The notes under the pieces: model-generated | What the model saw: the letters and a program-made list of their open reading frames with translations, nothing else | Told to the model about the DNA's origin: nothing | Databases searched by the model: none | Translations under genes and position numbers: made by a program | Shown: positions 6,969 to 43,547 of the stretch, piece after piece | How the letters are laid out: each line of letters begins with the position of its first letter | Numbering within the stretch: position 1 is the first letter of the stretch | From: Haloprofundus halophilus | GTDB taxonomy: Archaea > Halobacteriota > Halobacteria > Halobacteriales > Haloferacaceae | Direction: 5' to 3' | Assembly: GCF_003439925.1 (NCBI RefSeq) | Contig: NZ_QQRR01000001.1 | Span: 868,001-932,000, forward strand | DNA: 64,000 nt

Positions 6969-8485
6969 GAGTAGTCCTCCATGGAGAGTTGGCCGTCGGT
7001 CGACGTCTCCTCCGCGGCCGCCGTTTCAGCCGCCTCCGCGGTGTCGGCGGTCTCTTCGGCTTCCGCCGATTCGTCGTTCTCGGTCGACTCGGCGGACTCG
7101 GTCGATTCGTCGCTCCCGGTCGATTCGTCGGACTCGGAGGCGGACGCGGAGGAGGGTTCGACCGCGTCGGCGCTCACTCTCTCACCGTTCGTCGTCGGCT
7201 GCGACGCGTCGACACCGACGTCGGTTCTACCGGCAGCCCCGCCGATATCCGGGTTCGACTCGGGGACTCGCTCCGCCTCACTCGCGGCGGTCTGTTCCGC
7301 TTCGCGCTCGGCCTGTTCTGCTTCGTTCTCGGCCTGTTCCGCTTCGCTCTCGCCGTCTTCGCGCGCCTCCGCGCGCGAGAAGTTGTCGAGTCCGTCGTCG
7401 ACGAGCGTCGCGACGCGTTGTTTCACCTCCTCACGGACGTTCGAGTCAGCCGTTTTGCTGGCGCGCACCGTCTCGTCGACGTCGATTGCGGCGGCCGAGA
7501 GACCGAGGTCGGCGATGCGCTCTCGCACCGCGTCGTCGGGGTCGGCGAAACTCACAGAGAGGTCGGATTCGACCTCGACCTCCCGGCGGTCGGTGACGCG
7601 GGCGACCAGCGCGCCGCGCTCGGCGGCGAACTCCTCGACGCTCGCGGGTGTGACCGGCTCGCCGTCGCCGGTCACCTCGACGACGACGACGGCGTCTTCG
7701 AGGTCGTGTTGGCGGACCTGCTCGCGGACCCGCGCCTCACCCTCGCCTTCGTTCAGTTCCACGGAGACGAAGACGAACGAGCGCGTGTCGAGCGCCCGTT
7801 GGCGGATGTCCACCCCGCCGTCGTCGTCGAACTCGACGATGTTGTAGCCGCGACCCTCGCGTTCGCTCGTGCTCGCGCGCTCGGTCGACCCGCAGTAGGT
7901 GACGGGCGTCTCCCGCACCTCGGCGGTGCCGGCCTCGTGGTTGTCGCCGAGCAGTACGACGTCGAAGTCGACGTTGGAGCCGTCGAGCACCGCTTCGGTC
8001 TCCCAGTCGGCGTGAGCGAAGGGGGTGAAGAGACCGTGACTGACGAGCGCCGAGTGGGCGGCGTCGTGCGGCTCGAACTGGTAGTCGAGGTCGTCGCGGC
8101 GCGACTTCGGGACGTGGTCGAGGCCGTAGAACGCCGTGTCGCCGACGATACGGGGTTCGGCTCCGAGGCGCGTCGCGAGGCCGAGTCGCTCGAAGAGGTC
8201 GAGCCACTGCCCGCCTCGGGTCGACTCGTGGTTACCGACGACCGCCAGAAACGGGACGCCGGCGTCTTGGAGGGTCCGAAGCGCCGAGAGCGTTCCGAGG
8301 AGGTCCCGCAGTTCGGGGCGGCGGTCGTGAAACAGGTCGCCGGCGTGGACGACCGCGTCCACGTCGTCGTCGACGGCGTCCGCGAGCACCTGCTCGAACG
8401 CCGCCAGAAAGTCCCGTCGTCGCGCCGGCGAGTGGTACTGCTGATACCCGATGTGGGTGTCGCCGGTGTGTATCACCCGTGTCAT
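6965..8485 (-). CDS. mre11: DNA double-strand break repair nuclease Mre11
   Basis: A Mn-dependent calcineurin-type phosphoesterase, the nuclease partner of Rad50. The metal-binding motifs are in order: GDTHIGY (about 8-14), GDLFHDRRP (about 49-57), GNHEST (about 85-90), SHGLF (about 149-153) and GDNHE (about 181-185). The catalytic and capping region ends near residue 370. Beyond it is a long acidic, low-complexity tail of about 130 residues, with repeated AEQAE/AEREAEQ blocks and a run of [13 protein letters not shown] repeats, ending GQLSMEDYS. The total of 506 residues is longer than usual, owing to this tail. The gene overlaps its neighbours by four bases on each side. Confidence 0.96.
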
Positions 8486-8907
8486 CTGTCCGCCCGTTGG
8501 CTGTCCCCTCCTAAATGCGTACCGACGCGTGACGTTTCAACGTCCCCGCTCCGCTCGGCGCAGAGTTCTCCGTCCTGTCCGAACTGCGAGGCGGTCCCGG
8601 AGTTCGAGTCGACGCCGGCCGCGCGACGGTAGCGTTCGACGAGAGCCAGCACTCGTTCTCCCTCGCGGCGAACTGCCAGGTCACCCGCGCGCGACGAGAC
8701 GTCGACGGCATCGCGCAGCCGTTCGACGCCCCCGTCGGCGAAAAACGTCGCCGCGGACTCGACGTCGTCCGACGCTTCGACGGCCTCCCGTATCGTCTCG
8801 CGCGCTTCGGCGACCGCTTCGCCGGCGCGAGGCAGACGGCCGTCGTCGCGTCGCTCCCCGGCCGCAAGCGTCCGAAGCGCACGCCTGACCTCGTTCGGTG
8901 TTGCCAC
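8482..8907 (-). CDS. Haloarchaeal protein coupled to mre11-rad50
   Basis: A 141-residue soluble protein starting at a GTG (MATPNEVRRAL); a TTG three codons upstream is the alternative. It is helical and charged, with no recognised catalytic residues and two cysteines at most. Its stop overlaps the mre11 start by four bases (ATGA), so it is the first gene of a three-gene operon with mre11 and rad50. That position makes a role in DNA repair or in regulating the complex plausible, but this is only inference from context. I cannot name a family function. Confidence 0.72.
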   Translation of the reverse strand: MATPNEVRRALRTLAAGERRDDGRLPRAGEAVAEARETIREAVEASDDVESAATFFADGGVERLRDAVDVSSRAGDLAVRREGERVLALVERYRRAAGVDSNSGTASQFGQDGELCAERSGDVETSRVGTHLGGDSQRADR

Positions 8908-9020
8908 GCGGCGCAACTGGTTCCGTCCTCGGTGAAAAAGATTCGCGGAGAGCGACGGAGCGGAGAGACGAAGAGCAGGCGATGGTCTCGGCCGCGGCTT
9001 CGAACGACGGCGTCGTCGGT

Positions 9021-9080
9021 GTCGTTCAGACCGTCATCGCGTCGTTCAGGCCGTCGGCGTGTACTTCAGACCGTCAGCGT
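9021..9080. repeat. Three 20-bp tandem repeats overlapping a gene end
   Basis: Three 20-bp units lie at 9021-9040, 9041-9060 and 9061-9080. They share a core of GTTCAG(A/G)CCGTC with a few mismatches. The third unit contains the stop codon and last codons of the minus-strand regulator gene ending at 9066, so the repeats look like duplications of that gene's 3' end into the intergenic region. The rest of the 8908-9065 gap shows nothing else. Confidence 0.75.
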
Positions 9081-9323
9081 GTACAGCCGTTTCCGCGCGT
9101 CCGAGAACGAAAAGCGCGAGTCGACGACGTCCTGTTCCTCGAGTCTCGTCAGCGCGTACCGAACCGTCCGCGGCGGCAACAGCGTCTCCTCGGCGAGTTG
9201 GCTCTGCGTCATCGTCTCGTTGTAGTCGAGAACTTTCGCGACGAGTTTCGCGCTCGGGGGGAGGTCACGAATCGACTCCCACCGGTCGGTCGAATCGGTG
9301 GCGGTTACCTCGGTGCAACTCAT
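9066..9323 (-). CDS. MarR-like winged-helix regulator
   Basis: An 85-residue DNA-binding protein. A winged helix-turn-helix spans about residues 22-80: LPPSAKLVAKVLDYN, then MTQSQLAEETLLPPRTVRYALTRLEEQDVV and a beta wing ending in RLYTLTV. The family is common in haloarchaea, acting as small MarR/TrmB-like transcription regulators. A TATA-like AATATTAT lies about 30 bases before the start codon on this strand, consistent with a near-leaderless transcript. The gene is divergent from pan with 128 bases between, so it may control itself and possibly pan; this is not shown. Confidence 0.85.
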   Translation of the reverse strand: MSCTEVTATDSTDRWESIRDLPPSAKLVAKVLDYNETMTQSQLAEETLLPPRTVRYALTRLEEQDVVDSRFSFSDARKRLYTLTV

Positions 9324-9351
9324 GGATAGCTACTGCTCTGGCATACAGCCA

Positions 9352-9360
9352 GATAATATT
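9352..9360 (-). promoter_or_regulatory. TATA-like box of the MarR-like regulator
   Basis: On the minus strand the AT-rich AATATTAT block lies about 30 bases upstream of the ATG at 9323, in otherwise GC-rich DNA. This is the usual spacing for a haloarchaeal leaderless promoter. The same AT-rich stretch sits in the divergent promoter region shared with pan. Confidence 0.6.
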
Positions 9361-9423
9361 TGCTATGTTTAGATATTACTGTCAGAAATCTGCGGCGGCG
9401 AGTCGCCCCGCGACCCGAAGCCT

Positions 9424-9431
9424 CTTATGAA
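9424..9431 (+). promoter_or_regulatory. TATA-like box of pan
   Basis: CTTATGAA lies about 27 bases upstream of the pan ATG at 9452. The spacing predicts a transcript starting at or near the start codon, typical of haloarchaea. Confidence 0.55.
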
Positions 9432-9451
9432 CTTGTGACCTAATCCGTCCG

Positions 9452-10672
9452 ATGACCGATACTGTGGACGACGTCGACTTACCCTACGACGAGGAGGCGG
9501 CGTCACAGCAGGAGAAAATCGAGGCGTTGGAAGAACGCCTCGAGGTCCTCGAAGCGCAAAACGAGGAGATGCGTGACAAGCTCCTCGACGCGAACGCCGA
9601 GAACAACAAGTACCAGCAGAAGTTGGAGCGACTGACCCACGAGAACAAGAAGCTCAAGCAGTCGCCGCTGTTCGTCGCCACCGTCCAGGAGATAAACGAG
9701 GACGGCGTCGTGATCAAACAGCACGGCAACAACCAAGAGGCCCTCACCGAAGTGACCGACGAGATGCGGGACGACCTGGAACCCGACGCCCGCGTCGCCG
9801 TCAACAACTCTCTCTCCATAGTCAAGAAACTCGAAAAGGAGACCGACGTGCGCGCACGCGTAATGCAGGTCGAACACAGCCCCGACGTCACCTACGAGGA
9901 CATCGGCGGCCTCGAAGAGCAGATGAACGAGGTGCGCGAGACGGTCGAGATGCCGCTCGACCGCCCGGAGATGTTCACCGACGTCGGTATCGACCCGCCG
10001 TCCGGCGTGCTCCTCTACGGGCCGCCGGGCACCGGTAAGACGATGCTCGCCAAAGCCGTCGCCAACCAGACCGACGCCACCTTCATCAAGATGGCCGGCT
10101 CCGAGTTGGTCCACAAGTTCATCGGCGAGGGCGCGAAACTCGTCCGCGACCTCTTCGAGGTCGCGCGCGAGAACGAACCCGCCGTCCTCTTCATCGACGA
10201 GATAGACGCCATCGCCTCCAAGCGAACCGACTCGAAGACCTCCGGCGACGCCGAGGTCCAGCGGACGATGATGCAGCTGCTCAGCGAGATGGACGGCTTC
10301 GCCGACCGCGGCGAGATTCGCATCATCGCGGCGACGAACCGCTTCGACATGCTCGACCCCGCCATCCTCCGACCGGGGCGGTTCGACCGCCTCATCGAGG
10401 TGCCGAAACCGAACGACGACGGCCGCGAGATCATCTTCCAGATCCACACGCGCAACATGAACGTCTCCGACGACGTGGACTTCGCGGAGCTCGCCGAGAT
10501 GGCCGACGACGCCTCCGGTGCCGACATCAAAGCCGTCTGCACCGAGGCGGGGATGTTCGCCATCCGCGACGACCGCACCGAGATATACATGCAGGACTTC
10601 GTCGACGCGTGGGAGAAGATTCAGGCCGAAGACGCCGACGTCGACGCCGACGTGTCGCGCGCGTTCGCCTGA
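9452..10672 (+). CDS. pan: Proteasome-activating nucleotidase PAN
   Basis: A hexameric AAA+ ATPase of 406 residues that unfolds proteins and feeds them to the archaeal 20S proteasome. The N-terminal coiled coil spans about residues 20-75, followed by an OB-fold region. The AAA module has Walker A GPPGTGKT (about 190-197), Walker B LFIDEIDAIA (about 246-255), the second region of homology with the arginine fingers (ATNRFDMLDPAILRPGRFDR) and a C-terminal helical lid. The protein ends in AFA, whereas the classical proteasome-docking tail is hydrophobic-Tyr-any residue. A TATA-like box precedes the gene by about 27 bases. Confidence 0.97.
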   Translation: MTDTVDDVDLPYDEEAASQQEKIEALEERLEVLEAQNEEMRDKLLDANAENNKYQQKLERLTHENKKLKQSPLFVATVQEINEDGVVIKQHGNNQEALTEVTDEMRDDLEPDARVAVNNSLSIVKKLEKETDVRARVMQVEHSPDVTYEDIGGLEEQMNEVRETVEMPLDRPEMFTDVGIDPPSGVLLYGPPGTGKTMLAKAVANQTDATFIKMAGSELVHKFIGEGAKLVRDLFEVARENEPAVLFIDEIDAIASKRTDSKTSGDAEVQRTMMQLLSEMDGFADRGEIRIIAATNRFDMLDPAILRPGRFDRLIEVPKPNDDGREIIFQIHTRNMNVSDDVDFAELAEMADDASGADIKAVCTEAGMFAIRDDRTEIYMQDFVDAWEKIQAEDADVDADVSRAFA

Positions 10673-10805
10673 GCCGACCCCTCCTTCCGACGTTCTCGTC
10701 GGCTTCGACCGACGACGCTCTCTTTCGACCCTCTCCGTCGCAGAGCGACCCGGCTATCGATGAGTCGAGCGAGTCGAAGAACGGACACGGACCGGTCGCA
10801 GGAGA

Positions 10806-10841
10806 GACCGCAACCGCCGGGCGGACCGCAACCGCCGGGTG
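10806..10841. repeat. Two 18-bp tandem repeats downstream of pan
   Basis: Two adjacent 18-bp copies (GACCGCAACCGCCGGGCG and a copy with one change) lie in the 212-bp gap between the convergent pan gene and a small membrane protein gene. Nothing else is recognisable in this gap. Confidence 0.7.
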
Positions 10842-10884
10842 GACGGCTCACCGACGAGCGGTTCGGGCAGCAGCTACGGCGACG

Positions 10885-11031
10885 TCACGGCGAGATGAAC
10901 GTGCCGAACGCGGCGAGCGGGACGAGAAACAGGAGGACGAACATCACCAGGAGAATCGCGCCGTAGCCCGCGCCGACGCCCGCGACGGTCAGCCACGCCG
11001 GGTGGTCGAACTGGTCGAAATCGAGGCTCAT
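10885..11031 (-). CDS. 48-residue single-TM membrane protein
   Basis: A very short frame starting MSLDFDQFDHPAW, followed by one hydrophobic helix of about 30 residues (GAGYGAILLVMFVLLFLVPLA). It has no cysteines and no signal-peptide cleavage site. The frame is in the right place between convergent pan and divergent nth, and its amino-acid composition looks like a real haloarchaeal membrane peptide. Similar small proteins are annotated in haloarchaea at this locus as I remember it. Function unknown. Confidence 0.65.
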   Translation of the reverse strand: MSLDFDQFDHPAWLTVAGVGAGYGAILLVMFVLLFLVPLAAFGTFISP

Positions 11032-11172
11032 ACCCCCCACTCCGGACGGCGGTGACATAAACGTGGTCGTCGGAATCACGGCGAGTCGGGGAGGCGACCG
11101 TCGGACCCCGCTCGGCGACGAGCGCCGACGCCGAACCACAGTACTCAATTTCGCCCGCCCGCAGGGGTGGAT

Positions 11173-11856
11173 ATGGGAGAGCCACTGCCGTCGCGCGAGG
11201 AGCAGGCGTTGGAAGTCCTCGACCGCCTGTACGACGAGTACCCTGACACCACGATTTCGCTGAACTTCTCGAACCGCCTCGAACTGCTCATCGCCGTGAT
11301 GCTGTCGGCGCAGTGCACCGACGAGCGCGTCAACAAGGTGACCGCCGACCTCTTCGAGACGTACCGCACGCCCGAGGAGTACGCGAACGCGCCGCAGGAG
11401 GAGATGGCCGAGGCCATCTCGTCTATCACCTACTACAACAACAAGGCGAAGTACATCCGCTCGGCGGCCGCCGACATCGTCGAGAAACACGGCGGCGAGG
11501 TGCCCGACACGATGGACGAACTCACGGAGTTGGCGGGCGTCGGTCGGAAAACGGCGAACGTCGTGCTCCAGCACGGCCACGACGTCGTCGAGGGTATCGT
11601 CGTCGACACGCACGTCCAGCGCATCAGTCGCCGACTCGGCCTCACCGAGGAGGAGTACCCCGAGCGAATCGAGGAAGACCTGATGCCCGTCGTCCCCGAG
11701 GAGGACTGGCAGCAGTACACCCACCTGCTCATCAGCCACGGCCGAGCGGTCTGTACGGCCCGCAACCCGACGTGTTCGGACTGCGTGCTCGAAGACGTCT
11801 GCCCCTCCTCGAAACTCGACCACGAGGTCGACCTCGCCAGCGGCGACGCGTGGTGA
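11173..11856 (+). CDS. nth: Endonuclease III (base-excision repair glycosylase/AP lyase)
   Basis: A DNA glycosylase/AP lyase that removes oxidised pyrimidines, 227 residues. The helix-hairpin-helix LAGVGRKTANVVL (about residues 118-130) contains the catalytic lysine, and VDTHVQRISRRLGL (about 142-155) contains the catalytic aspartate. The C-terminal cysteines have the spacing C-X6-C-X2-C-X5-C, the [4Fe-4S] cluster signature of the family. A GTG two codons earlier (11167) is an alternative start; the ATG at 11173 is preferred. It is divergent from the small membrane protein gene. Confidence 0.95.
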   Translation: MGEPLPSREEQALEVLDRLYDEYPDTTISLNFSNRLELLIAVMLSAQCTDERVNKVTADLFETYRTPEEYANAPQEEMAEAISSITYYNNKAKYIRSAAADIVEKHGGEVPDTMDELTELAGVGRKTANVVLQHGHDVVEGIVVDTHVQRISRRLGLTEEEYPERIEEDLMPVVPEEDWQQYTHLLISHGRAVCTARNPTCSDCVLEDVCPSSKLDHEVDLASGDAW

Positions 11857-39344: not shown

Positions 39345-40442
39345 ATGGCACGAGTGTTCAAATCCCCGGCCAGCTACGTACAGGGAGCGGGCGTCGCCGA
39401 CCAACTCGGCGAGCACACCGCAGCGTTCGGTGAGTCGGCACTGTTGCTCGCCGACGAAATCGTCCTCGACATCGTCGAAGAGACGGTCCGGTCGAGCCTC
39501 GAATCGGCCGATATCGAGCTGTCGACCGTCACCTTCGAGGGCGAAGCCTCCGACGCGGAGATCGAGCGCGTCACCGACGAAGCCGAAGAGCAGGGAGTCG
39601 ACTTCATCGTCGGCGCGGGCGGTGGAAAGACGCTTGACACCGCGAAGGCCGTCAAGGAGGACGCGACCATCCCCGTCGTCTCGATGCCGACCGTCGCCTC
39701 GACGGACGCGCCGACGAGCAGCCTCTCGGTCATCTACAGCGAACACGGCGAGTTCGAGCGCTACCGCTTCTACTCGTCGCACCCCGAACTCGTGCTCGTC
39801 GACACCGCGCTCGTCGCGTCGGCCCCGACTCGGTTCTTCACCTCCGGCGTCGGCGACGCGCTCGCGACGTGGTTCGAAGCCGACGCAACCTACCGGTCGA
39901 CGGGGACGACTATCTTCGGTGAGCGGCCGACGCGCAGCGGTCACGCGCTCGCGGAACTCTGTTACGAGACGCTCCGCGAGCACGCGCTCTCGGCGGTGCA
40001 GGCCGTCGAGCGCGACGCGGTCACGGAGAGCGTCGAAGCCGTCACGGAGGCGAACACGCTCCTGAGCGGGTTGGGCTTCGAGAGCGGCGGTCTCGCGGCG
40101 GCGCACTCGGTGCACAACGGCCTGACGCAGTTGGAGGCGACCCACGACGCGACCCACGGCGAGAAGGTGAACGTCGGGACGCTGACGCAACTGGTGTTGG
40201 AGGGCAAGGACGACGCGTTCGTTCGCGACATCTTCGAGTTCTCGGAGGCGGTCGGCCTCCCGGTGACGCTCGCGGACATCGGCCTCGAAGACCCGAGCCG
40301 CGACGACCTCGACCGCGTGGCCGAGGCCGCCTGCGTCGAAGACGAGACAATCCACAACGAACCGTTCCCGGTCGACCCTGCGATGGTCCGCGACGCGTTG
40401 CTGACCGCCGACGCGCTGGGACGACAGGTTCGCGAGCGGTAA
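39345..40442 (+). CDS. gldA: Glycerol dehydrogenase (iron/zinc-type alcohol dehydrogenase fold)
   Basis: An NAD-dependent dehydrogenase of 365 residues that oxidises glycerol to dihydroxyacetone. The nucleotide-binding GAGGGKTLDTAK lies at about 95-106, then PTVASTDAPTSSLSVIY. Metal ligands are Asp in GVGDALATWFEAD (about 170), His in LAAAHSVHNG (about 250) and His in DATHGEKV (about 268). GLGFESGGLAAAHSVHNGL is a glycerol dehydrogenase signature, distinguishing it from G1P dehydrogenase (present at 49935). The gene stands alone on its strand. Glycerol is a common halophile substrate, since Dunaliella accumulates it. Confidence 0.9.
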   Translation: MARVFKSPASYVQGAGVADQLGEHTAAFGESALLLADEIVLDIVEETVRSSLESADIELSTVTFEGEASDAEIERVTDEAEEQGVDFIVGAGGGKTLDTAKAVKEDATIPVVSMPTVASTDAPTSSLSVIYSEHGEFERYRFYSSHPELVLVDTALVASAPTRFFTSGVGDALATWFEADATYRSTGTTIFGERPTRSGHALAELCYETLREHALSAVQAVERDAVTESVEAVTEANTLLSGLGFESGGLAAAHSVHNGLTQLEATHDATHGEKVNVGTLTQLVLEGKDDAFVRDIFEFSEAVGLPVTLADIGLEDPSRDDLDRVAEAACVEDETIHNEPFPVDPAMVRDALLTADALGRQVRER

Positions 40443-40468
40443 CGGCAAACGAGAGCCGCGTCAGTGCG

Positions 40469-41314
40469 TCAGTCCGCGCCTTCCGCCTCGCGCGCACGCT
40501 GACGTTTTCGGGACTCGTGTAGTTGCGCGCAGACGCCGCCCTGTCCGCGCATGTTCACCGACGCCAAGCGACCGCGGCGGCGGACGAGGTCGAACTGGTC
40601 GACCGAAATCGGGTCTCCTTCCGGCGTGCGGAACAGCGGACCCGACTCGAAATCGACGCCGACCGACTCGGCTTTTTCGACGTAGTCGACGAGCGAGTCG
40701 TGCGGGACGCAGAGCCGTATCGCGCCGTCGGCGACCGAGACAATGGCTCGCTCGCTTTCGGGGCCGAGAGGGTCGAACGTCACGTCGGCGGCCGAAAGCG
40801 AAACGAGTTGTTCCGGGGTCGCCCCCGCGTCGAGCAGCGCGTCGAGGGCACGGTGCTGACGGACGATTCGCGCCTTCTCGTCGAGCTCTCGGCGCACTGC
40901 GTCGAGGTCGCCGTCGGCGTCGTCGAACGCCTCGGCGAACGGGCGGTCGTCGTTTATCCCGTCGGTGAGTTCCGTCTCGTGGACGTGGTCTTCGAGGACG
41001 ACCCGAGTTCGGGCGACGCCGGGGAGCGACTCGACGGCCGCGCGTGCATCGCTCATCATGAGCCACGCGAACGCGGGCGAACACCACGCCGTCGGCAGCG
41101 AGAGGCGGACCGTCACCGACTTGCCGCGGCGGTCGCCGTCGGCGGCGACGCTGCCGCCCTCGTCGTCAAGGTCGATGTCGGTGACGTAGTCGAGGTCGAC
41201 GATGGAGCGGTCGAGCTCCGGGTCGGTGACGCCGTCGAGCGCGTTCAGAATCGCACTGCGACGTGGTGTGACCGCACTCGTCGGGGGGTCGCTCCGCAGA
41301 CGTTTACCCGCCAT
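40469..41314 (-). CDS. DUF59/MIP18-like iron-sulfur assembly-type protein
   Basis: A 281-residue protein whose N-terminal part (about 18-110) is a DUF59 (PaaD/MIP18) domain: ILNALDGVTDPELDRSIVDLDYV followed by SVTVRLSLPTAWCSPAFAWLM, with the conserved Cys. DUF59 proteins help mature Fe-S or di-iron oxygenases. The rest (about 130-281) is a helical region plus VPHDSLVDYVEKAE and a short basic tail, family unknown. Its ATG overlaps the amidohydrolase stop by one base (TGATG). In actinobacterial propane-monooxygenase clusters, a protein like this sits between the amidohydrolase and adh genes. Confidence 0.82.
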   Translation of the reverse strand: MAGKRLRSDPPTSAVTPRRSAILNALDGVTDPELDRSIVDLDYVTDIDLDDEGGSVAADGDRRGKSVTVRLSLPTAWCSPAFAWLMMSDARAAVESLPGVARTRVVLEDHVHETELTDGINDDRPFAEAFDDADGDLDAVRRELDEKARIVRQHRALDALLDAGATPEQLVSLSAADVTFDPLGPESERAIVSVADGAIRLCVPHDSLVDYVEKAESVGVDFESGPLFRTPEGDPISVDQFDLVRRRGRLASVNMRGQGGVCAQLHESRKRQRAREAEGAD

Positions 41315-42369
41315 CAGTCTGCGGCCGCGTCCGCGGCGTAATGGTCGCCCAGTCCGAACTGCTCGGATATCTCGTCGGACTGGAGTTCCTTCTTCTTCTC
41401 CTCGATGTCGATGTCGTAGAGGCGGGCGGCGTTCTCGCCCATCACCTTCTTCATCACCTCGGTCGAGAGTTCGACGCCGTACTCGTCGCGCTGCTCGGGG
41501 GTGAGCTCGGCTTCCATCACCAGTTCGACGAGCCAGTCGGGGTTCCACAGCGCGTAGTCGCTGCCGAACAGCAGGCGGTCCTCTCCGAGCCAGTAGAGCA
41601 GTTCACCCATTATCTCGCCGAACTTCCGTGGTCGGTTCTGCACCATCGGCGCGGCGACGGCGAGGCCGCCGTAGACGTTCGGTTCCTGCGCGGCGATCCA
41701 GCAGAAGTCGTCGAGTCGAGGGAGACCCACGTGTTCGACAACGAAGTTGAGTTCGGGGAAGGAGGTGGCCGCGTCGTCGACGTCGGCCACGTCGAAAGCG
41801 TCGCGGTTCAGCGGTCGAATCGTCGGCCCCTTGTGCGGGTGGACGTTCTCGATGCCCAGTTCGCTGCACTTCTCGAGGAACTCGAACGTCTCGGGGTCGT
41901 CGAGTCGCCACCCCTTCGAGTCACCTTTCCACTCGGCGGTGTAGAGCTTCACGCCGTCGACGTCGTACTCCTCCTTCTGTCGCTCCAGTTCCTGCTTACC
42001 CGCCTCGCCGTCGCGCGGGTCGAAGCGGCCGTTGACGATGAACCGTTCGGGGTACCGGTCGACGAGTTCGGCGTTGTCGTCGACGGTGTTGAACCCCTCC
42101 TCGTAGAACTCGTGCAGGTGCGTCGGCTGGAAGATGGCCATGTCGACCGCACCGTTGCCGAACAGGTCCTCGACCATCCGGTCGGCGCTGTACGTTCGGT
42201 ACTCGTCGAGCGTCCACTGTCGGTCCTCGGGGGTGAAGCCGGTGTGGTAGTCGTAGAAACAGCGGATGAACTGCTCGCCGCCGTCGTGCTTGATGTTCTC
42301 CTCGCTGGCGTCCCAGTGGTGGACGTGCGCGTCGACGACGAACACGTCCTCACCGCGTTGACGGTACAT
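41314..42369 (-). CDS. Amidohydrolase-2 family protein (propane-monooxygenase cluster type)
   Basis: A 351-residue TIM-barrel metal-dependent hydrolase of the amidohydrolase-2 group. The first metal motif is VDAHVHHWD (about 12-20), a His follows in VHPHKGP, a further His in FVVEHVGLPRLDDFCW and the Asp in FGSDYALWNP (about 288). The blocks FDVADVDDAAT, EHVGLPRLDDFCWIA and GELLYWLGEDR match, as I remember it, the amidohydrolase of bacterial propane monooxygenase (prm/mim) clusters. The first gene of a two-gene operon with the DUF59 protein; divergent from the alcohol dehydrogenase gene. Chemistry is not established. Confidence 0.85.
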   Translation of the reverse strand: MYRQRGEDVFVVDAHVHHWDASEENIKHDGGEQFIRCFYDYHTGFTPEDRQWTLDEYRTYSADRMVEDLFGNGAVDMAIFQPTHLHEFYEEGFNTVDDNAELVDRYPERFIVNGRFDPRDGEAGKQELERQKEEYDVDGVKLYTAEWKGDSKGWRLDDPETFEFLEKCSELGIENVHPHKGPTIRPLNRDAFDVADVDDAATSFPELNFVVEHVGLPRLDDFCWIAAQEPNVYGGLAVAAPMVQNRPRKFGEIMGELLYWLGEDRLLFGSDYALWNPDWLVELVMEAELTPEQRDEYGVELSTEVMKKVMGENAARLYDIDIEEKKKELQSDEISEQFGLGDHYAADAAAD

Positions 42370-42476
42370 GTCGGGCTGATGTTTGGGAACATACTACATT
42401 ATCTTTCGTTATGTTGTCGGCGAGAGAAACACTGTGTCGGAGGAGAGTCTCTCGCGATACTGTAAATCCGAGAACA

Positions 42477-42484
42477 GTTATACA
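42477..42484 (+). promoter_or_regulatory. TATA-like box of the alcohol dehydrogenase gene
   Basis: GTTATACA lies about 27-33 bases before the ATG at 42510 in the 140-bp divergent region shared with the amidohydrolase operon. That region is AT-richer than its surroundings (for example CATACTACATTATC near 42391) and could hold operators for both directions. Confidence 0.6.
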
Positions 42485-42509
42485 GTCGCAAGTGACAGTA
42501 GCTACCACG

Positions 42510-43547
42510 ATGCAAGCTGCGAGATTACACGAGTACACCGACGACATGGAGCACGCGCTGTCGATAGACGAAGTCGACCGACCGGAGCCGGGACACGGCG
42601 AAGTCGTCGTCGAGGTCGAAGGCGCGGGCTGGTGTCAGACGGACAACCACATCATCGAGGGGATGTGGACCGACTACGTCGAACAGGAGCTTCCGATGAC
42701 GCTCGGCCACGAGAACGCCGGTACCGTCGTCGAAGTCGGCGACGGCGTCGAGACGGTCTCGGAGGGCGACTCCGTCATCTGTCACCCGGTGATGACCTGC
42801 GGCGTCTGTCGCGCCTGCCGGATGGGCGAGGACATGTACTGCGAGAACCTCAAGTTCCCCGGCCTCACGACCGACGGCGGCTTCGCCGAGTATCTGCTCA
42901 CCTCACAGCGGTCGGTGATTCCGCTGCCCGAGGGGACCGATACGACGGACATCGCCCCGCACGCCGACGCCGGAATCACGGCGTACCACGCCGTCAAGAA
43001 GGCCGTCAGAGAGCTGAACCCCGGCGACCACGCCGTCGTCATCGGCGTCGGCGGCCTCGGTCACATCGGCCTGCAGTGTCTGAACGCGATGAGCGCGACG
43101 AACATCGTCGCCGTCGACCTGAAAGACGAGGCGCTGGACCTCGCGACCGAACTCGGCGCGCACGAGACGGTGAACCCGACGAACGTCGACGTCGCCGACG
43201 CCGTCGATGACATCACCGACGGCGCGGGCGCGCGACAGGTACTCGACTTCGTCGGGGCCGACCAGACCACGGAACTCGCCCCCGACATCGTCTCCGCCGG
43301 CGGCGACCACCACATCATCGGCTACGGCGGCCACATCCACGAACCGTCGCAGGCGCTCGTCGACGGCGAGTTCAGCTTCGTCGGCAACATCGTCGGCAAG
43401 TACACCGAACTGCAGGAACTCGTCTCGCTCGTGGACCGCGGCGACGTCGAACTGCGCACCTCGCGGTACGGACTGGACGACGTGAACACCGTCGCAGAGA
43501 AGCTCGAACACGGCGAGATAGAGGGTCGCGCGGTCATCACGCCGTAG
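42510..43547 (+). CDS. Zinc-dependent medium-chain alcohol dehydrogenase
   Basis: A 345-residue NAD(P)-dependent dehydrogenase. Catalytic zinc ligands are Cys in GAGWCQTDNH (about 42) and His-Glu in LGHENAG (about 68-69). The structural zinc loop is CGVCRACRMGEDMYC (about 98-112; Cys spacing 2, 2, 7). The Rossmann motif is GVGGLGHIG (about 178-186) with an acidic residue VDLKDE favouring NAD. Frame begins MQAARLHEYTDDME. It is divergent from the amidohydrolase/DUF59 operon, so the three look like one functional unit, probably oxidising a secondary or short-chain alcohol. Confidence 0.93.
   Translation: MQAARLHEYTDDMEHALSIDEVDRPEPGHGEVVVEVEGAGWCQTDNHIIEGMWTDYVEQELPMTLGHENAGTVVEVGDGVETVSEGDSVICHPVMTCGVCRACRMGEDMYCENLKFPGLTTDGGFAEYLLTSQRSVIPLPEGTDTTDIAPHADAGITAYHAVKKAVRELNPGDHAVVIGVGGLGHIGLQCLNAMSATNIVAVDLKDEALDLATELGAHETVNPTNVDVADAVDDITDGAGARQVLDFVGADQTTELAPDIVSAGGDHHIIGYGGHIHEPSQALVDGEFSFVGNIVGKYTELQELVSLVDRGDVELRTSRYGLDDVNTVAEKLEHGEIEGRAVITP

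Follow-up and report, generated by a model that had tools for sequence, protein, structure and literature searches.

Genes for a metal-dependent hydrolase, a metal-sulfur cluster biosynthetic enzyme, an alcohol dehydrogenase (ADH) and GroEL have been described downstream of the propane monooxygenase genes prmABCD (PMC4428276, PMC6849523). In a 64,000-nucleotide stretch of the genome of the haloarchaeon Haloprofundus halophilus (the window), homologues of the amidohydrolase, DUF59 protein and ADH of such prm/mim clusters adjoin one another. Do these three proteins serve a soluble di-iron monooxygenase (SDIMO) encoded elsewhere in the genome, or do they serve another process?

Organization of the locus

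The amidohydrolase gene (41314..42369, reverse strand; 351 aa; PF04909, E = 5e-47) is followed on the same strand by the gene for a DUF59/FeS_assembly_P (MIP18-like) protein (40469..41314; 281 aa; PF01883, E = 2.5e-12). The two genes have one base in common, the stop of the first and the start of the second forming TGATG (41312..41316, reverse strand, read from 41316 to 41312), an overlap that suggests translational coupling. A Zn-dependent medium-chain ADH gene (42510..43547, forward strand; 345 aa; PF08240/PF00107) lies opposite, across a divergent promoter region of exactly 140 bp (42370..42509), as the sequence-only reading had described. The divergent spacing is conserved in haloarchaea, and when haloarchaeal loci are compared only basal promoter-like elements are prominent in the region. 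One example is the 8-mer AAACGTTC, which many loci of Halorubrum and Natrialbaceae have toward the ADH; it does not occur in the window's own divergent region.

The proposed homology to prm/mim-cluster proteins holds, with identities to the bacterial versions of 27-60%: 53-60% for the amidohydrolase (against SDIMO-linked homologues), 44-53% for the ADH, and 27-37% for the DUF59 protein. The three conserved blocks that had been quoted from the amidohydrolase all occur in the window protein, and SDIMO-linked homologues from bacteria have them too; their counterparts in Rhodococcus aetherivorans are FDVSDIDKVAT, EHVGLPRLEDFCW, and GELLYWIGEDK.

The three proteins

The window amidohydrolase has the metal/catalytic HxH, H, H, D set (H15, H17, H177, H179, H213, and D271), whose residues are kept in 45-48 of 48 homologues. 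Invariant in the alignment are D13, H15, K141, H179, H213, and D271, as well as C37 and C223, while three Bacillota proteins have lost H17, part of the canonical HxH metal motif. The AlphaFold model (pLDDT 91) matches a TIM-barrel fold, which supports the Amidohydro_2 assignment. The nearest solved structures are mostly decarboxylase/hydratase-type amidohydrolases, and assignment of a function from them was rejected because identities of only 13-18% cannot fix the chemistry. In the amidohydrolase tree, the haloarchaeal proteins form a clade of their own (100/100), outside every sampled bacterial one, SDIMO-linked or not; they are therefore not nested in a prm-associated clade, and the sequence-only reading had named placement outside such clades as a result that would speak against it. 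The root of this tree is not established, because one outgroup row lies on a very long branch.

The DUF59 protein (AlphaFold model, pLDDT 92) has an N-terminal domain that matches CIAO2/MIP18 and DUF59 structures, and it has in common with CIAO2/MIP18, SufT, and PaaD the fold and the conserved cysteine region of that domain. Unlike them, it continues into an additional C-terminal domain, which is helical and contains an invariant cysteine; C78, H110, and C262 are the invariant residues in the alignments. Its scores fall far below the cut-offs of the NCBIfam SUF-associated (21 vs 143.4 bits) and PaaD (20.6 vs 180 bits) equivalogs. The C-terminal domain also has weak matches to tyrosine recombinases (E about 0.1), and one family member gives a Phage_integrase match at 0.14; we treat that relationship as unproven.

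In the ADH, the ADH_N and ADH_zinc_N domains span the full length of the protein, as in the MDR family. The best solved relative, for it as for the ADH of a Mesorhizobium prm cluster, is the Aeropyrum pernix ADH (1h2b), a hyperthermophile enzyme characterized in vitro that accepts 2-pentanol (PMC6257473).

Conservation in haloarchaea

Of 292 haloarchaeal genomes, 87 (about 30%) have the amidohydrolase, and precisely these have the DUF59 protein; the ADH accompanies the pair in 86 of the 87, and the remaining genome has a frameshifted ADH copy (raw counts, which ignore relatedness). The ADH is also present in 71 of the other 205 genomes. The dependence is thus one-way: the pair goes with the ADH, and the ADH, which many genomes keep without the pair, is independent of it. 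At all 39 haloarchaeal loci examined the DUF59 gene comes after the amidohydrolase gene, and 31 of these loci have a divergent ADH gene no more than about 255 bp away, an arrangement that excludes chance juxtaposition; at five the ADH is not adjacent to the pair. Amidohydrolase and DUF59 are likewise always paired in 80/80 named loci and in 17/17 plasmid records with a close amidohydrolase. In a congeneric genome, both flanks are syntenic, the ADH is kept, and exactly the amidohydrolase-DUF59 block is missing. The sequence-only reading had staked its proposal on conservation of the trio in related haloarchaea, and since that conservation is strong the proposal survives on this point.

Beyond the trio, no neighbor is conserved across haloarchaeal genera, as judged with a crude picking of genes. 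A downstream ketone pathway was sought with acetone carboxylase gamma as the candidate and none was found: the gene is missing from the H. halophilus genome, and only 6 of the 87 genomes with the pair have it, about the background rate. Acetone carboxylase was rejected as the downstream step for this lack of association.

Search for an oxygenase and a chaperonin

The SDIMO profile PF02332, which detected the positive controls, finds nothing in the H. halophilus genome, and nothing in the 87 haloarchaeal genomes with the pair. It matches in only 3 of the 292 haloarchaea, and none of the three has the trio or the pair. The suggestion that an SDIMO lies elsewhere in the genome thus fails, and of the two options left by the sequence-only reading the other, that the proteins serve another process, is favored. 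A copper membrane monooxygenase is not found in the H. halophilus genome either, and no match exceeds the cut-off across the haloarchaeal class. The GroEL-like partner that had been looked for fared no better: the genome has no prm-type GroEL, only thermosome-like local matches at 29-36% identity.

Bacterial relatives with and without an oxygenase

The gene neighborhood that the sequence-only reading gave for prm/mim clusters is confirmed by the literature and by Aminobacter and Paracoccus plasmids, where the genes run SDIMO alpha, reductase, beta, coupling protein, amidohydrolase, DUF59, and GroEL; on the Paracoccus plasmid, the ADH adjoins this cluster. In Mycobacterium AT1, the three genes are located away from the monooxygenase (PMC6849523). 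The prm/mim clusters of Gordonia TY-5, Rhodococcus BCP1, and Mycobacterium smegmatis have homologues of all three window proteins. However, prm/mim clusters include an SDIMO and a prm-type GroEL, both missing from the haloarchaeal genome, their ADH gene is co-directional rather than divergent, and their amidohydrolases belong to clades apart from the haloarchaeal one.

The pair is also found by itself in Bacillota, Rubrobacter, and Chloroflexota. Co-occurrence with SDIMO in bacteria was tested on 18 genomes holding named loci. Whole-genome searches find no SDIMO in the isolates Jeotgalibacillus soli, Alteribacillus, Paenibacillus validus, and Rubrobacter taiwanensis, nor in several bacterial MAGs with the pair or trio. 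Eight SDIMO-free loci were compared, and those of Bacillota, Acidiphilium, Rubrobacter, and Thermoflexus have the same three-gene core with no adjacent oxygenase; most of their genomes have no SDIMO at all, and Acidiphilium has one elsewhere. Their gene order and orientation differ from those of the haloarchaeal trio, a DJ-1/PfpI gene is added in some Bacillota, and sigma-54 or IclR-type regulators are close by in some. The earlier description of the trio as standing alone in a haloarchaeon was therefore too narrow, because SDIMO-free versions exist in several bacterial phyla.

In a Centralia MAG, the pair comes directly after amoC/amoA/amoB-type copper monooxygenase genes, and it therefore renders no particular service to di-iron centers. 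A parallel is the C3 (2-propanol/acetone) cluster of Methylacidiphilum with PMO3, where C3-alcohol and ketone catabolism is built around a non-SDIMO oxygenase. Its published gene list mentions no amidohydrolase or DUF59 protein, and has instead a GMC oxidoreductase, a glyoxalase, and GlcDF (PMC12235487).

A possible function of the trio

Because the trio occurs in about 30% of the sampled haloarchaea without a propane oxygenase, it is probably a self-contained pathway rather than a set of oxygenase accessories. We put a probability of roughly 0.5 on its being a monooxygenase-independent, self-contained module for the catabolism of a short-chain alcohol or ketone (or for the clearing of carbonyls). 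The NAD-dependent Zn-ADH would, judging from its family, oxidize a small, probably secondary, alcohol (2-propanol, 2-butanol, or acetol are candidates) to a ketone or other carbonyl. The metal-dependent amidohydrolase, with its active site intact, may then convert this product or a derivative of it. The DUF59 protein, which no sampled haloarchaeon has without the amidohydrolase, would serve that enzyme alone, in metal handling or maturation, with C78, H110, and C262 as candidate ligands. In alkane-oxidizing bacteria, the same module would come after a monooxygenase of the SDIMO or copper type, which makes the alcohol in the cell, and in haloarchaea the alcohol or ketone would be taken from outside or from another reaction. 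A bolder version is speculative: that the amidohydrolase and DUF59 protein together catalyze a reaction not described before, in which a small ketone or alpha-hydroxyketone is converted without oxygen, and that this would be both the true role of the prm-cluster "accessory" genes and a widespread, unrecognized haloarchaeal pathway. Our literature searches found no assigned substrate of the amidohydrolase or function of the prm accessory genes, and nothing on small-alcohol use by haloarchaea.

The pair might instead remove a reactive carbonyl compound, be it methylglyoxal or some other short aldehyde or ketoaldehyde, with the ADH interconverting the related alcohol. A DJ-1/PfpI protein is encoded before or after the pair in SDIMO-free Bacillota, GlcD/GlcF-type genes come after it in Jeotgalibacillus and Paenibacillus, and in Rhizobium N324 it neighbors a glyoxalase and a 2-hydroxyacid-dehydrogenase-like gene. 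The Methylacidiphilum C3 cluster also has a glyoxalase and glcD/glcF, with a proposed route from methylglyoxal through lactate to pyruvate (PMC12235487). However, no such neighbor is conserved in haloarchaea, most SDIMO-linked clusters have no glyoxalase-like neighbor, and DJ-1 proteins are functionally diverse, so that detoxification seems unlikely.

It is also rather improbable that the amidohydrolase and DUF59 protein form a metal-assembly or chaperone complex for another protein, be it the ADH or an unlinked enzyme. Their strict pairing in every genome, the invariant cysteines in both (C37/C223 and C78/C262), and the loss of H17 in the three Bacillota proteins would suit such a complex, but the rest of the amidohydrolase active site is intact in the 48 homologues and the ADH does without the pair in many genomes. 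In Actinomycetospora grown on 2-hydroxyisobutyrate, the amidohydrolase makes up 3.2% and Adh1 6.1% of the proteome, with no large shift on acetone (PMC7176365). Such abundance is enzyme-like, although the chaperone MimG is as abundant as the amidohydrolase (PMC7176365).

The H. halophilus genome has P450 genes, so an internal oxygenase could still supply the alcohol, and the trio would then be the lower part of a short-alkane or ether pathway, in keeping with the bacterial linkage of its genes to alkane/acetone oxygenases; but these P450s are not near the trio and P450s are widespread among microbes, and we regard this as very doubtful. Least probable of all is an accessory or maturation set for an SDIMO encoded elsewhere, which for PF02332-type enzymes is refuted. 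In its favor, SDIMO and GroEL genes are bordered by these genes in Actinobacteria and many Proteobacteria, DUF59 proteins have been connected with the assembly of metal centers, and one DUF59 relative, PaaD, acts together with a di-iron epoxidase (the PaaD match here is weak and below cut-off). However, the trio genomes have no SDIMO, the haloarchaea with one have no pair, and elsewhere the pair occurs by itself (Bacillota, Rubrobacter, Chloroflexota) or, in one MAG, behind a copper monooxygenase operon.

Implications

In the haloarchaeal trio, a known gene association takes a new form that is widespread and has no oxygenase. Published clusters draw the amidohydrolase and DUF59 genes beside propane and acetone monooxygenases, with no tested function in the literature we found. 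A strictly paired module that occurs without SDIMO in some 30% of the haloarchaea sampled and in bacteria of several phyla, once next to a copper oxygenase, is, we argue, a metabolic unit in its own right. In culturable haloarchaea with the trio, among them Haladaptatus, Natrinema pallidum, and Halorubrum sodomense, the phenotype is not obscured by such an oxygenase; there the trio may reveal a DUF59 protein dedicated to one enzyme and an unrecognized path that short-chain alcohols or ketones take in hypersaline environments.

Gene organization and conservation in haloarchaea

The trio consists of a DUF59 gene (40469-41314, minus strand; Pfam FeS_assembly_P, E=2.5e-12) and an amidohydrolase gene (41314-42369, minus strand; Pfam Amidohydro_2, E=5e-47), together called the pair, and a zinc alcohol dehydrogenase (ADH) gene (42510-43547, plus strand; Pfam ADH_N and ADH_zinc_N). 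These positions and gene types, proposed in the sequence-only reading, are borne out by the sequence, with Pfam in agreement. The two genes of the pair overlap by one base, within TGATG, and a divergent region of 140 bp separates the amidohydrolase gene from the ADH gene. Past DUF59, the next gene is convergent and encodes a glycolaldehyde reductase/glycerol dehydrogenase-type iron ADH (39345-40442, plus strand; NF053832, 653.7 bits vs a cut-off of 550). Among the loci compared, this neighbor adjoins the trio within the genus only.

In all 39 haloarchaeal loci examined, the amidohydrolase gene is followed by DUF59. Of these loci, 31 have a divergent ADH gene no more than about 255 bp away, one has it divergent and farther off, two have it co-directional and five lack it nearby. 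Among 43 named haloarchaeal loci, a set that overlaps with the 39, the pair is always intact and the divergent ADH is found in 40. Orthologues of the amidohydrolase (70% identity or more) and of DUF59 occur in the identical set of 87 of 292 haloarchaeal genomes. An ADH orthologue is present in 86 of the 87 and in 71 of the 205 others (Fisher value 1e-28, uncorrected for relatedness). The dependence is one-way: the pair implies the ADH, and the ADH does not imply the pair. In haloarchaea, the trio is conserved as a unit; the sequence-only reading had staked its case on such conservation in related haloarchaea, and the locus and genome counts uphold it. Signs of decay are also seen: the divergent ADH gene of the 87th genome is frameshifted (locus L122), and locus L193 has a second, stop-containing DUF59 copy (G014:C3:2410874-2411500).

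Pair and ADH can be separated: a congeneric genome (locus L190) is collinear with the window on both flanks at 89-91% identity and retains the ADH (91% identity), and what it lacks is precisely the amidohydrolase-DUF59 segment (window about 40439-42490). The likelier direction of change is loss, because other genera share the neighbors and have the pair.

Relation to propane monooxygenase clusters

The tie of the trio to bacterial propane monooxygenase (prm) clusters is real, as plasmid gene orders and published clusters show. Amidohydrolase homologues on bacterial plasmids are 50-58% identical, and a DUF59 homologue accompanies the amidohydrolase in 17 of 17 plasmid records (two of them haloarchaeal). 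On Aminobacter pAA02 and Paracoccus pAMI4, the genes run from soluble di-iron monooxygenase (SDIMO) alpha through reductase, beta, coupling protein, amidohydrolase and DUF59 to GroEL; in pAMI4, an ADH gene is next. The same accessory genes lie 3' of the oxygenase genes prmABCD in Rhodococcus, Mycobacterium and Gordonia (PMC4428276, PMC6849523). The chromosome of Mycobacterium AT1 carries the amidohydrolase, unknown-function and ADH genes at one site and the monooxygenase at another (PMC6849523).

Of the 37 named bacterial loci in GTDB genomes, 22 have SDIMO beside the pair and 15 do not, the named loci being the best-scoring 80 and not chosen at random. In a tree of 55 amidohydrolases, SDIMO linkage switches at least four times among bacteria, and a 100/100 branch sets haloarchaea apart on one side; the tree is not reliably rooted, the sole outgroup being too distant. 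Several bacteria carry the pair and have no SDIMO, among them the isolates Jeotgalibacillus soli, Alteribacillus, Paenibacillus validus and Rubrobacter taiwanensis, and MAGs of Bacillota, Thermoflexus and others, although such calls include drafts and MAGs that are possibly incomplete. In a proteobacterial Centralia MAG (L146, 4626-11038), amoC/amoA/amoB-like genes matching AmoC, AMO and Monooxygenase_B are directly upstream of the pair, and an ADH gene and a sigma-54-type regulator are farther upstream of these copper membrane monooxygenase genes. The pair is not tied to di-iron enzymes in particular. L146 may represent a copper propane/acetone monooxygenase cluster in an organism other than the known methanotrophs. 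The trio is a conserved, oxygenase-free variant of an already known gene association.

Search for an oxygenase

The sequence-only reading had allowed either an oxygenase elsewhere in the genome or another process. The first option does not hold for SDIMOs: a PF02332 search finds no SDIMO in the host genome (3.47 Mb, haloarchaeal, 99% complete). This negative is meaningful because the same search succeeds on positive controls, namely four plasmid records and bacterial genomes known to have SDIMO. In this genome, a prm-type GroEL query gives nothing but thermosome-like matches; P450s are present, unlinked to the trio. Across the haloarchaeal class, nothing exceeds the cut-off for the copper membrane monooxygenase (PF02461). 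SDIMO looks rare in haloarchaea (3 of 292 genomes by PF02332), and none of the three genomes carries the pair. Their hydroxylase subunits (L072 in G063, 6993-11517; L073 in G216; L074 in G094) score well above the PF02332 cut-off, share just 24-26% identity with prm alpha and have no trio alongside; in L072, the alpha-like one includes a YHS domain. These SDIMOs may merit separate study.

Protein features

The amidohydrolase is modeled as a TIM barrel (pLDDT 91). The solved structures nearest to it share 13-18% identity and belong mainly to Amidohydro_2 enzymes of the decarboxylase and hydratase types. In 48 homologues, D13, H15, K141, H179, H213 and D271 are invariant, as are C37 and C223, and H17 and H177 are nearly so. 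In the DUF59 model (pLDDT 92), the N-domain resembles MIP18/CIAO2, and the C-domain is helical and gave no convincing match; across 46 homologues, C78, H110 and C262 do not vary. A weak likeness to tyrosine recombinase catalytic domains is possible for the C-terminal domain (residues 137-281 of the protein encoded at 40472-41314; Foldseek E about 0.1, whole model), a likeness that finds no support in the sequence. The solved structure closest to the window ADH, by a wide margin, is Aeropyrum pernix ADH (338 vs 225 bits), which is also closest to a Mesorhizobium prm-cluster ADH (314 vs 183 bits). The Aeropyrum enzyme accepts 2-pentanol (PMC6257473).

Possible function

We favor a putative role of the trio in small-alcohol/ketone catabolism, because several lines of evidence point that way. 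The ADH is the constant partner of the pair, and the oxygenases that sometimes join them belong to types with known small-alcohol or hydroxyketone products. When Actinomycetospora grows on 2-hydroxyisobutyrate, the amidohydrolase makes up 3.2% and Adh1 6.1% of the proteome, a level for the amidohydrolase that fits an enzyme, though a chaperone, MimG, is equally abundant (PMC7176365). DJ-1/PfpI or glyoxalase genes adjoin the pair in SDIMO-free Bacillota and in Rhizobium N324, and two of the Bacillota have GlcD/GlcF-type genes after it. A similar set is seen in the Methylacidiphilum C3 cluster, where acetone monooxygenase is combined with glyoxalase and glcD/glcF (PMC12235487).

The pair occurs with a DJ-1/PfpI gene at four Bacillota loci (L159, 10862-15502; L165, 5341-10153; L033, 10868-11440; L162, 8373-8966), in two of which a sugar-diacid-type regulator and GlcD/GlcF-like genes come after. 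The Bacillota neighbors hint at a methylglyoxal/lactate or glycolate route. Acetone carboxylase as the linked next step was rejected, there being no association. The main rival is that the trio serves in carbonyl detoxification. In small-alcohol/ketone catabolism, the ADH product or a derivative would become the substrate of the amidohydrolase, which the DUF59 protein would serve. The alternative raised from the sequence, that the trio belongs to another process, is the one favored, and it is now open to testing.
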